A stretch of DNA of 54,064 nucleotides from Acetivibrio sp. MSJd-27 (lineage in GTDB: Bacteria > Bacillota > Clostridia > UMGS1840 > HGM11507), in assembly GCF_018918095.1 (NCBI RefSeq), contig NZ_JAHLPV010000016.1, positions 1 to 54,064 of the forward strand. Reading direction: 5' to 3'. The notes beneath the pieces were generated by a model, which was not told where the DNA came from, ran no database searches, and saw only the letters and a program-made list of their open reading frames with translations. This document shows, piece after piece, positions 44,411 through 48,717 of the stretch. A program made the translations under genes and the position numbers. How positions within the stretch are numbered: position 1 is the stretch's first letter; each line of letters begins with the position of its first letter.

Positions 44411-44453
44411 AGGAAGATTCCGCAGGATTAAAGTCTTGCGGAATTCCTTTTTT
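44411..44453 (+). terminator. Terminator after the esterase
   Basis: ATTCCGCA with TGCGGAAT extended by AGGA/TCCT, 12-base loop, six T. Confidence 0.85.
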
Positions 44454-44612: not shown

Positions 44613-44641
44613 CCCCCCAAATTTTTAACCACTGTTTCGTA
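44613..44641 (+). promoter_or_regulatory. Candidate sigma-I type promoter
   Basis: A run of six C (44613-44618) followed by AAATTTTT and, 19 bases later, CGTA (44638-44641). Sigma-I promoters are known for a C-tract -35 and a CGAA/CGTA-like -10. sigI itself lies 2.5 kb downstream. TATACAAT just after could instead be a sigma-A -10. Apart from this and the terminator, 44366-44688 holds no gene. Confidence 0.5.
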
Positions 44642-44688
44642 TTATACAATACAAGCGGCTTGAATTAAAAATACGAGGGGGAACCATT

Positions 44689-46281
44689 ATGAAATTATCG
44701 CGAAAAATGATGAGTTTTCTTTTGACGGCACTCATGGTATTAATTCTGCTTCCGGCTGCTGCTATGAAGATCGGCGCATCCAATATGTATGAAAACAGCG
44801 ACTTTATCGAAACGGAACAACCGGAACTCAGTGAGGAATCGAAACAGTTGATTTCCCTGTATCAAAAAAATCCCACTGTGGAAAATTATCTGAACCTTCG
44901 GAATAATGTCATAGACAATTACAATGCTGTGCTTGAACGGAAAGAAGCTAAACTTGCCGAATTGAAAACGGAAACGGCAGGGAAACCCGGCGGTGATGCA
45001 ATTGTTGCTGAGATGGAAGAAATTGTTCAGGAGATGTATATAACCTACTGGAGTCGTATCAACAGCAGTATGCTCCGTTTCACCGATACACGGCTTTTGA
45101 AATGGAAAATTTCCAATGCGGCGCAGTATGAGTATATCCCTGTTATGGGCGCAGGGGAAAGCATTTATGTCAAACGCACATCTGTTACAAACGCGGAATA
45201 TGCAGAGTTTGTCACGGCAACAGGTGCACAAGCTCCGTCCAACTGGTCGGACGGGACTTATCCCGCAGGAGAGGACAATTATCCTGTAAATTTGGTTTCC
45301 TATGAGGACGCGGAAAACTATTGCGATTGGCTGACCGAACAGGACGGTGTGGATACCTATCGTTTGCCCAATGAAAGCGAATGGGAACTGGCGGCAGGAC
45401 ATATGCCGAAAGACGCTGATTTTAACTGCGGTGTCAATGACGGCAGAACGCCGGTTGAACAGTATGCTGACGTTACCAGAGGCGCACATGGCGCGATTGA
45501 TTTTTGGGGAAATGTTTGGGAATGGACATCAACCGTGAGAGACAATTCTAATGGGATAACCACGTTGGGCGTCAAGGGCGGTTCTTGGAAATCCTCCAGA
45601 ACAGATTGCCGTACCGAGTGCCGTGAGGAAGGCCGAGACGATTCGAGGGGCTATGAAGATGTGGGCTTCCGCGTAATTCAAGTATTAAACGGAATCGAGC
45701 CTGAACAAAAAGTAGAGCTTGCAACTCTTGCTTCTCCTGTTGTATCAGCAACATCTACAGCACCGGACAGTATTACATTATCGTGGCAGCCGGTTGACGG
45801 CGCAATAGAATATCAGCTTTTTGAGTATTTTGAAGAAACAGGACTTGTGCAAATGCTTGAAACGACAAAAGAAACATCTGTTACAATGCGTGATTTGGTA
45901 ACGGGCAGTACACACCAATATATTGTTCAGCCAATCGCTTACATTGAAATTGCAGATAATGTATCTTCGGAAAACAGCGTTGTGGCAACCTGTGGCCAGG
46001 AAACTAATACAGCCGATTGGCAAACCGCCATTGTATTGCAGATAGACAATCCCATGCTGACTGTAAACGGTGAGGAAAAAAATATTGATGATAACGGTAC
46101 TGTTCCGCTTTTGATGAACGACAGGACGCTTGTTCCGATTAGAGCCATAGTGGAAGCAATGGGCGGAACGGTAGAATGGAATCAGGACTTACAAACGGCT
46201 GTACTTATGATGAATGGGATTGAAATACGTCTTGTAATAGACAGCACCATCGCATATTTGAATGGAGAAGAAAAAATTTAG
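44689..46281 (+). CDS. Secreted FGE-sulfatase-fold protein with FN3-like and stalk regions, frame broken at 3' end
   Basis: 530 residues. Signal peptide 1-30. Helical linker 40-125. SUMF1/FGE-like domain about 145-340 (VTNAEYAEF, YRLPNESEWELAA, GNVWEWTS, KGGSWKSSRTDC, GFRV). One Cys of the canonical formylglycine-enzyme pair is Ser, so true FGE activity is doubtful. FN3-like region 350-420. Copper-amine-oxidase-type stalk begins at about 455 (LMNDRTLVPIRAIVEAMGG) and stops early at TAG 46279. The missing half lies in the -1 frame. GAGGGGG precedes the ATG. Confidence 0.85.
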   Translation: MKLSRKMMSFLLTALMVLILLPAAAMKIGASNMYENSDFIETEQPELSEESKQLISLYQKNPTVENYLNLRNNVIDNYNAVLERKEAKLAELKTETAGKPGGDAIVAEMEEIVQEMYITYWSRINSSMLRFTDTRLLKWKISNAAQYEYIPVMGAGESIYVKRTSVTNAEYAEFVTATGAQAPSNWSDGTYPAGEDNYPVNLVSYEDAENYCDWLTEQDGVDTYRLPNESEWELAAGHMPKDADFNCGVNDGRTPVEQYADVTRGAHGAIDFWGNVWEWTSTVRDNSNGITTLGVKGGSWKSSRTDCRTECREEGRDDSRGYEDVGFRVIQVLNGIEPEQKVELATLASPVVSATSTAPDSITLSWQPVDGAIEYQLFEYFEETGLVQMLETTKETSVTMRDLVTGSTHQYIVQPIAYIEIADNVSSENSVVATCGQETNTADWQTAIVLQIDNPMLTVNGEEKNIDDNGTVPLLMNDRTLVPIRAIVEAMGGTVEWNQDLQTAVLMMNGIEIRLVIDSTIAYLNGEEKI

Positions 46282-47027
46282 ATACAGCGCCGATTCTTAT
46301 AAACGACAGAACATTGTTCCCCATTCGGTTTGTAGCAGAAAGTTTTGGATTTGATGTAACTTGGGACGAGCAGAACAGGATTGTAACAATAGGCTATAAT
46401 GGTCAAACAATGAAAAATTCCGCAACACTTTTATATCAAGGATAAGGAAGTATTCGTATTGTAACTGCCGAAGAAAAGGTTATCTATATTGACCCCTATG
46501 CTGGGGAGGGCTACAACCTCCCCGCTGATTTAATTTTGGTAACACACGGGCATTCCGACCATAATGCTTTGGAAAAAATAGAAAACCGAAACAGCGATTG
46601 TGTCATTATAACACAGAGCGAAGCAATACAGGACGGGGAGCATCAAATGTTTGATTTGGGCTATGTTCAAGTAGAAGCTGTGGAAGCGGGATATAATGAT
46701 ATGCACGATGTAAAAGAGTGTGTTGGGTATGTACTAACTTTTTCTAACGGTAAGTCGGTCTATGTTTCGGGAGACACCTCAACAACACGGCAAATGTCAG
46801 AAATGGCACAAATGCAGATTGATTATGCGTTTTATTGCTGTGACGGCGTATTTAATATGGGATTGGACGAAGCCGCTCTTTGTGCCCAAATGGTTGGTGC
46901 GAAACACAATATCCCCTATCACATGACAGGCAGAACGCTAAAAACCTATGATAGAGAAATTGCGGAACAATTTTCTGCACCCAATCGGCTGATTGTTGAC
47001 TCCGGAGAGAAAATTGAGATTGTATAA
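46282..47027 (+). pseudogene. Detached stalk half plus metallo-beta-lactamase-fold domain
   Basis: From about 46275, the -1 frame continues the stalk (INDRTLFPIRFVAESFGFDVTW) to TAA 46443, and after that stop the same frame reads GSIRIV...IYIDPYAG, THGHSDHN (zinc motif HxHxDH), SGDTS, and ends at 47027. This is a UlaG/YycJ-like metallo-hydrolase domain. Two lesions (frameshift near the A-run 46271-46276 and the in-frame stop) separate it from the gene upstream. No good start exists for the MBL part alone; an ATG-less TTG/GTG start inside would lose the N-terminal strand. Confidence 0.7.
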
Positions 47028-47050
47028 AATGGTCTTTAACCATAGCCATA

Positions 47051-47089
47051 TTGAAAATATTTGTGTTATGTTCAAATATTCAATAAAAT
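47051..47089 (+). promoter_or_regulatory. Promoter of sigI within an inverted repeat
   Basis: TTGTGT (47061-47066), 17-base spacer, TAAAAT (47084-47089). TTGAAAATATTTG (47051-47063) pairs with CAAATATTCAA (47073-47083) with a two-base bulge, overlapping the -35 and the spacer. No C-tract sigma-I promoter is seen directly before sigI. Confidence 0.5.
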
Positions 47090-47119
47090 GTAGTCAAGCA
47101 ACAAGGAAGTGAGAAACAA

Positions 47120-47815
47120 ATGGAAACGGCTGAAAAAATAATACGGGCACAGGCAGATAATGTAGCGCGGGAGTTATTTATCAAGGAAAATATGGCATTT
47201 ATTTATAGCTGTGCTGCACAGGTAGCCGGACACTTTGTCGATGAAAGCGATGATGTGTTTTCTGAGGCTTTAGCCGCCTTCCATGACGCTCTCACAAACT
47301 ACGAGGAAAGAAAAGGTCATTTTCATGCGTTTGCGAAGACTTGTATTCAAAACAGGATTAAGGATTATTACCGTGCACAAAACCGTCATAGACACATAAT
47401 CCCGTTCAGCAGTCTTGCGGCGGAGAATAGTAACGGCGAAGAAACTGCTTTTGAAGTGGAAGATAAAAATACAGGGACTTCTGAAACCGCTTTTGAAATT
47501 TATTCTCTGAAAGCGGAGCTGGAATCGTTTAGAATATCATTTTTTGAGCTTCCAAAAGCTGCGCCGAAATCGAAAAAGACGCGGGATGCCTGCGTTGATA
47601 TTGTACGATATATTACGGGCAGCAAAGAACTGCTTGCTACCGTATATAATAAAAAGGTTTTGCCGGTAAAACAAGTACTCTCTGATTTAAAAGTGAACAA
47701 AAAAATACTGGAACGGCATAGAAACTATTTAATTATGGGAATTTTAATTATAAATGGAAATTACGAAATATTATCAGAATATTTTGATTCCGAATACAGG
47801 AGGTGGAAACAATGA
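47120..47815 (+). CDS. sigI: RNA polymerase sigma factor SigI
   Basis: 231 residues. Sigma-70 region 2-like N-terminal half (ESDDVFSEALAAFHDALTNYEERKGHFHAFAKTCIQNRIKDYYR split over 45-90) and the SigI-specific C-terminal domain: LPKAAPKSKKTRDACVDIV, LPVKQVL, KKILERHRNYLI, then NGNYEIL near the end. SigI controls heat or cell-wall/polysaccharide responses and is held by RsgI at the membrane. Ends overlapping rsgI by four bases (ATGA). Confidence 0.92.
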   Translation: METAEKIIRAQADNVARELFIKENMAFIYSCAAQVAGHFVDESDDVFSEALAAFHDALTNYEERKGHFHAFAKTCIQNRIKDYYRAQNRHRHIIPFSSLAAENSNGEETAFEVEDKNTGTSETAFEIYSLKAELESFRISFFELPKAAPKSKKTRDACVDIVRYITGSKELLATVYNKKVLPVKQVLSDLKVNKKILERHRNYLIMGILIINGNYEILSEYFDSEYRRWKQ

Positions 47816-48717
47816 AGGGGACTGTGATGGATATTCAAAACGGCCGGGCGGTTGTTTTTCAGAAAAACGGAGATATGACCGAAGTGAAAGACAAAGGGTA
47901 TCAAATCGGACAAACCATCAATATCACAATCTATCCGTACAAAAAGTTTATGGTAATGGCAGCCTGCTTTATGCTGATTTTTATCACAGGCGTTTCGGGA
48001 TATGAGGCGGCATACCGTACGCCGTCCGGCTATATCTATGTAGATATTAACCCAAGCATGCGTCTAGATGTAAACTGCTTTGACAAGGTTATTTCCGTTG
48101 TTCCATTAAATGAGGATGCTGCGGGACTTATAAAAGACTATCCGCTTCGAGCGGCCGATACGGAACAATGTATTGACGAAATTGTATTTGCCTGCCGTGA
48201 AAAAGAATATTTGAATAATCATGATAAAGATATTGAATTGAATGTAGTCACAAAGAAATCAAACTTAAACAATCGCGTTCATATGGTATCGGAAAAGCTG
48301 AAAAAGGATAATTGGAAGGTCTCTGTGCTTAATGTGGACAAAGAGGAAAATGACAAAGCAATGAGATACCGAACGTCTCCAAAAAGGCTCAAAGCGGTTG
48401 AAGAATATACAAACGCATTCGGTGGAACACTTGAGGACAATTTTGCGGCATTAAAGGATACAACAAACAATGACATCTATGCGGAGCTTGAGGCGGCTGG
48501 TTATACAATGGAGATGGACAGCAAAAACGGCTTTGAGCAGAAACCGCAGGACGGAAAATATAAATCTTCGCCCGAACGGCTGAAAGCTGTGAAAGAATAT
48601 ACGGATATGTTCGGCGGAAGTTTGGAGGAAAATATGAAAGCCCTAAAAAGTATCGGCATACAAGAAATATATGCTGCAATGGAAAGCCAAACGCCAATTA
48701 CAATTTTTTCGAATTAA
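47812..48717 (+). CDS. rsgI: Anti-sigma-I factor RsgI with a tandem-repeat ectodomain
   Basis: 301 residues from ATG 47812, eight bases after AGGAGG. N-terminal cytoplasmic RsgI domain (1-42; GTVMDIQNGRAVV), one membrane helix (about 46-63), then the conserved extracellular segment VDINPSMRLDVN with the Asn80-Pro81 bond where RsgI proteins self-cleave. The rest carries two repeats, about 185-227 and 249-291 (SPxRLKAVxEYTxxFGGxLExNxxALK). No known carbohydrate-binding module is visible. Confidence 0.92.
   Translation: MKGTVMDIQNGRAVVFQKNGDMTEVKDKGYQIGQTINITIYPYKKFMVMAACFMLIFITGVSGYEAAYRTPSGYIYVDINPSMRLDVNCFDKVISVVPLNEDAAGLIKDYPLRAADTEQCIDEIVFACREKEYLNNHDKDIELNVVTKKSNLNNRVHMVSEKLKKDNWKVSVLNVDKEENDKAMRYRTSPKRLKAVEEYTNAFGGTLEDNFAALKDTTNNDIYAELEAAGYTMEMDSKNGFEQKPQDGKYKSSPERLKAVKEYTDMFGGSLEENMKALKSIGIQEIYAAMESQTPITIFSN

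Follow-up and report, generated by a model that had tools for sequence, protein, structure and literature searches.

Described sigma-I/RsgI systems

Much of the work on sigma-I in clostridia concerns cellulosomes, and known examples are the biomass-sensing pairs of Clostridium thermocellum, including SigI1, SigI6, RsgI1 and RsgI2, in which sigma-I is released through proteolysis of its anti-sigma factor RsgI (PMC12203970). Published sigma-I promoters combine an A-tract and a CGWA element with a specificity region, which in some cases is rich in C (PMC6056542, PMC10575876). In SigI6, a role has been described for K170/H171/R172, and a basic/His motif of the C-terminal domain enters the minor groove of the A-tract. 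In Bacillus subtilis, sigma-I regulates mreBH and lytE, in an account where a stalk gene is not named (PMC7478892), and RsgI has been proposed to sense gaps in the cell wall via a disordered tail (a proposal cited in PMC13059805).

The window analyzed here is a 54,064-nucleotide stretch of a contig of Acetivibrio sp. MSJd-27 (NZ_JAHLPV010000016.1). It contains a locus that resembles the C. thermocellum pairs in sigma-I homology, the RsgI N-terminal domain, the self-cleaving periplasmic domain, the C-rich/A-tract/CGWA promoter and the sigI-rsgI operon, but differs in lacking a carbohydrate-binding ectodomain, in the presence of a secreted stalk gene before sigI, and in the absence of a predicted regulon of exported enzymes. 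We consider it likely that this locus is a self-amplifying sigma-I/RsgI envelope-signalling operon with a stalk gene in first position, and that this first gene is broken in MSJd-27. Its features, all on the forward (+) strand, are as follows:

44416..44445, +, terminator-like intrinsic hairpin with a T tract (13-pair stem, CCTTTTTT tail), setting the operon apart from the upstream esterase gene
44613..44646, +, promoter of the sigma-I type (C6 and an A/T tract, with CGTA 19 nt after the last C and TTATA following it)
44689..46281, +, 5' part of the first gene, encoding a signal peptide, a helical region, the FGE-fold domain, an FN3-like segment and stalk domain 1, and ending at a TAG within the stalk region
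46263..46445, +, what is left of stalk domain 2, read in a different frame (PF07833, E 5e-13), coding to about 46442 and followed by TAA
46446..47027, +, MBL-fold segment, UPF0173-like, with THGHSDH (PF13483, E 5e-12) and without a start codon of its own
47120..47815, +, sigI, sigma-I factor of 231 aa (NCBIfam SigI; solved SigI6/SigI1; ERHR motif)
47812..48717, +, rsgI, anti-sigma-I factor of 301 aa (RsgI_N, a single transmembrane helix, a DINPS-bearing SEAL domain and two helical hairpins)

The sigma-I/RsgI pair

The first-pass annotation had named the last two genes sigI and rsgI, and profile matches, homology to solved structures and an AlphaFold model identify them as genuine members of these families. 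The best NCBIfam SigI model matches the sigI product with E 7e-50, and because these scores lie under the curated cut-offs the protein is regarded as a divergent member of the family. It contains sigma region 2 and a C-terminal domain homologous to those of solved SigI factors, the closest structures being SigI6 (E 4e-25 over residues 12-222) and SigI1. Its ERHR motif, invariant in the sigI clade of the window, aligns in sequence with the ERNK of SigI6.

The rsgI start codon (ATG, 47812) overlaps the sigI stop codon as ATGA. Its product combines an N-terminal inhibitory domain, one transmembrane helix and a SEAL/periplasmic domain carrying an N-P site, and is matched by RsgI_M (E 5e-25) and by RsgI_N (20.3 bits, under the cut-off of 25); no other RsgI_N-type match is present in the genome. 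For the AlphaFold model (mean pLDDT 89), the best structural match is to the B. subtilis RsgI SEAL domain (8t9n); the periplasmic domain of C. thermocellum RsgI2 (8hdj) also matches, and the match to the N-terminal domain of RsgI1 (6ivs) is weak. The C-terminal part consists of a duplicated helical hairpin (SPxRLKAVxEYTxxFGGSLExN), which occurs once in the relatives L063 and L100. The earlier description of rsgI as a new type is thus mildly favored by the duplicated hairpin, and not by the SEAL domain, which is ordinary.

A sigma-I type promoter heading the operon

The promoter motif and coordinates proposed in the first pass are correct: a C6 tract (44613-44618) is followed, after a 19 nt spacer, by CGTA (44638-44641), giving a C-rich/A-tract -35 region and a CGWA -10 element at the near-constant spacing of published sigma-I promoters. 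A genome-wide search for C6-N19-CGTA, suggested at that stage, finds two exact copies in 3.05 Mb, the second of which lacks the A/T tract. The combination of C-tract, A/T tract and CGWA is conserved at the head of the operon in four other lineages (L098, L099, L100 and L101), with TGTA replacing CGWA in L099, and it lies 32-43 nt ahead of the start of the first gene in these loci versus 47 nt in the window. Of 84 more distant sigI loci for which 300 nt or more of upstream sequence is available, 23 carry a strict form of the motif within 450 nt upstream of sigI, compared with 1.48 expected from dinucleotide shuffles. The assignment of this element as a sigma-I type promoter heading a stalk-sigI-rsgI operon is therefore well supported at the sequence level, as is the regulatory link from sigma-I to the operon, which had initially been put forward as an inference. 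The hairpin at 44416-44445 is consistent with a 5' boundary and is taken as supportive only, because comparable sites are no more frequent in the region than expected by chance.

A sigma-A start site at the downstream TATACAAT would have argued otherwise. AT-rich sequence directly after CGWA is a shared feature of the relatives' promoters, so TATACAAT is better assigned to the conserved element than interpreted as a sigma-A box of its own, and promoter prediction calls no sigma-70 type promoter at this position; a sigma-A start here is unlikely on sequence. A weak internal promoter may additionally serve sigI.

Exact and relaxed pattern searches, which would miss more divergent targets, find a single strong sigma-I site in the genome, that of this operon, with the remaining matches at or near control frequency. 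Two 3-mismatch matches (C1 250193 and 252659) upstream of a duplicated stalk gene were not counted as sigma-I targets, because both lie in the duplicated copies of a single intergenic stretch, and a sigma-A reading also fits. The genes in question (L226; C1:250338-251117 and C1:252805-253581) encode two near-identical, signal-peptide-like stalk proteins of about 259 aa, an apparent duplication in which the upstream regions, with a weak C-tract...CGAATAATA match, were copied as well.

The damaged first gene

The first-pass annotation described the gene behind this promoter as encoding a secreted FGE-stalk-MBL protein. The modules are encoded in that order: the first reading frame contains a signal peptide (read directly from the sequence), an FGE fold (PF03781, E 8e-24), a weak FN3 match below the Pfam cut-off, and stalk domain 1 (Cu_amine_oxidN1, PF07833, E 3e-16), and the second stalk domain and the MBL fold follow. 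They do not form a single protein, however. The first break is a TAG (46279-46281) inside the stalk region beside an A6 run, beyond which stalk domain 2 continues in another frame; the second is a TAA (46443-46445) in the frame of stalk domain 2, after which the MBL segment continues in the same frame. The TAA falls in an otherwise conserved YQG-H-GS motif, where intact relatives have H (YQGHGS) and sometimes Q or R. The MBL segment contains no ATG, GTG or TTG before 46536, a position already within the fold, and thus, despite its HxHxDH-type metal motif, does not amount to an expressible MBL-fold hydrolase. Because of the frame change and the stop, at most a truncated FGE-FN3-stalk protein of 530 residues would be made, and the best reading of the sequence is that the lead gene is decaying in strain MSJd-27.

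These lesion calls rest on one draft assembly of 104 contigs, the relatives searched all coming from other genera, and since the frame change sits at the A6 run, a sequencing error is possible for the first lesion. That both breaks are assembly errors, the gene being intact in the living strain, is nevertheless unlikely, as the TAA lies at a separate site that is not a homopolymer, and two independent errors about 165 nt apart would have to have struck a single gene. An explanation that we regard as quite improbable is that the gene is functional as it stands, a programmed frameshift at the A6 run, together with readthrough or reinitiation, yielding the full FGE-stalk-MBL protein as a sigma-I output. 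Apart from the breaks themselves, the flanking domains are well conserved, the MBL part shares 63% identity with an intact relative, and the composition is normal, all of which would fit a working gene; but two separate breaks would need to be bypassed, no canonical slippery heptamer lies in frame, the TAA occupies the conserved His/Gln/Arg position, and the MBL part has no start codon.

The name formylglycine-generating enzyme does not suit the FGE fold. In these enzymes a catalytic cysteine pair follows GGS (GGS-x2-C-x4-C). The window protein carries GGSWKSSRTDC, in which the position of the first catalytic Cys is occupied by Ser, so that one cysteine of the pair is lacking. Among solved structures, those closest in sequence are EgtB-type enzymes and the FGE-like domain of ToxD. 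Only one clear relative besides that of the window is found in 391 genomes of the class, and it does not adjoin sigI.

Intact proteins built from the same modules are encoded elsewhere: L215 is a signal peptide-FGE-stalk-stalk protein, L212 a signal peptide-stalk-stalk-MBL protein, and L080 and L089 are stalk-stalk-FGE-flavodoxin-like proteins. These secreted proteins share their building blocks with the first gene of the window, but they are intact, differ in module order and do not adjoin sigI, no sigI having been found near them in those stretches. The L080 and L089 proteins (L080:4472-6301, L089:1596-3404) come from other clostridia, and their C-terminal part is unusual in placing an exported flavodoxin-like module on a stalk. 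An MBL domain of the same family also occurs in a single frame after a long PT-rich repeat protein (L190:1-2061). In the MSJd-27 genome itself, the stalk region of the window has 49 matches, its own included, many of them in reading frames of 800-1,100 aa across many contigs, which suggests a general role for the stalk domain as a surface module in this organism.

Conservation of the stalk-sigI-rsgI arrangement

A survey of 84,980 species genomes gave the best 80 sigI loci. In all five of the nearest sigI-rsgI relatives (L097-L101, L098 and L101 being identical to loci L061 and L062), the gene directly upstream of sigI encodes a protein with two stalk (Cu_amine_oxidN1) domains at its C-terminal end, whereas this is the case in none of 84 other loci with at least 300 nt of upstream sequence; these counts use a profile built from matches to the window's own stalk, so a highly divergent stalk gene could escape them. 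The relatives' proteins have in common a signal peptide (except that L097 is cut by its contig end), a linker of low complexity, a helical hairpin and the two stalk domains, and a structure model of one of them has about 100 low-confidence residues followed by the hairpin and by a pair of beta domains resembling the copper amine oxidase N-terminal domain.

In the sigI tree, the window, L097-L101 and L063 form one seven-member group (SH-aLRT 96). Unlike in L097-L101, the stalk gene of L063 is located further downstream; there (L063:11291-15427) the sigI-rsgI pair is followed by a 915 aa repeat-rich secreted protein and a stalk protein, which may make up a further output set. The five sigI-linked stalks cluster together (SH-aLRT 95.5). 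The stalk domains of the window fall in a different subfamily, the L080-L096 family (100/98), and orthology with the other sigI-linked stalks is not claimed; the AU test does not reject a joint clade (p 0.32). With the tree placing them in another subfamily and a single clade nonetheless compatible with the data, an ancestral stalk gene may possibly have been replaced by the FGE-stalk-MBL gene. Horizontal transfer of the operon is likewise not claimed, its composition being ordinary.

With 49 stalk matches in the genome and the window stalk belonging to another subfamily, the neighborhood might be a coincidence, which we judge very improbable: the five-of-five versus none-of-84 distribution, the same promoter ahead of the gene wherever upstream sequence of the relatives is available, and the clustering of the five sigI-linked stalks all argue against it. 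Because distant relatives keep both the layout and the promoter, the stalk-sigI-rsgI pairing is considered real. The gene-pairing check suggested in the first pass therefore succeeds for the stalk domain and fails for FGE and MBL, which are not shared. The initial emphasis on an FGE-stalk-MBL output of sigma-I does not hold up, since the gene is broken, FGE and MBL are not shared with the other operons, and the intact FGE-stalk and stalk-MBL proteins elsewhere do not lie beside sigI; FGE-stalk-MBL is a decaying, lineage-specific form of the first gene of the operon. Among the papers accessible to the search, none dealt with stalk-domain function or with stalk-sigI operons.

Proposed mechanism and signal

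The sequence itself shows what the genes are, how sigI and rsgI overlap, that the promoter and the pairing are conserved, and where the first gene is damaged; from established knowledge we infer cleavage of RsgI, autoregulation and, by analogy, an envelope signal. The cytoplasmic N-terminal domain of RsgI would bind and silence sigma-I, and the SEAL domain on the outer face would cleave itself at Asn-Pro. A signal from outside would then pull the SEAL halves apart, leading to intramembrane and cytoplasmic proteolysis and to free sigma-I; an M50 protease encoded in the genome is a strong candidate for the intramembrane step. Freed sigma-I would transcribe its own operon from the C-tract/A-T-tract/CGTA promoter, producing the surface protein together with more sigma-I and RsgI. 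In the clade, this surface protein would be a secreted protein with tandem stalk domains, placed in the relatives after a long disordered linker.

The least likely reading of all, that RsgI is a cellulosome-type polysaccharide sensor and the operon controls glycan-degrading enzymes, draws on the signalling core shared with C. thermocellum (PMC12203970), but Pfam finds no carbohydrate-binding or glycosidase domain in the window RsgI, whose ectodomain consists of the SEAL domain and the two hairpins, none is seen in the relatives' upstream genes, and the pattern searches reveal no second strong promoter site in the genome.

The best reading is that the operon is a conserved, non-cellulosomal branch of the known sigma-I/RsgI system. 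Because the first gene of the clade makes a secreted tandem-stalk protein, the signal is probably the state of the cell envelope rather than plant polysaccharide. In the relatives, low-complexity stretches are present on both RsgI and the stalk protein, and the long low-complexity RsgI tails of L097-L101 resemble the tail with which B. subtilis RsgI is proposed to probe the wall for gaps (cited in PMC13059805). The window RsgI is without a long low-complexity tail, and has two ordered helical hairpins where the B. subtilis protein has its tail. More tentatively, the stalk protein might be a dedicated third component, secreted, wall-spanning and made under sigma-I control, that feeds back on the ectodomain of RsgI or restores the wall condition to which RsgI responds, an idea that we hold to be possible rather than probable. 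If true, stalk-sigI-rsgI would be an envelope-sensing module in its own right, with no relation to polysaccharide digestion.

The damaged first gene is a warning that the FGE-stalk-MBL mosaic is not itself the conserved output, while the one layout shared by six lineages makes the arrangement directly testable. The operon also offers a regulatory context for the stalk (Cu_amine_oxidN1) domain, which is common but unexplained. It hints at a branch of sigma-I signalling that is not tied to cellulose digestion, and, beside the cellulosomal systems, points to a separate and probably envelope-related role for sigma-I.
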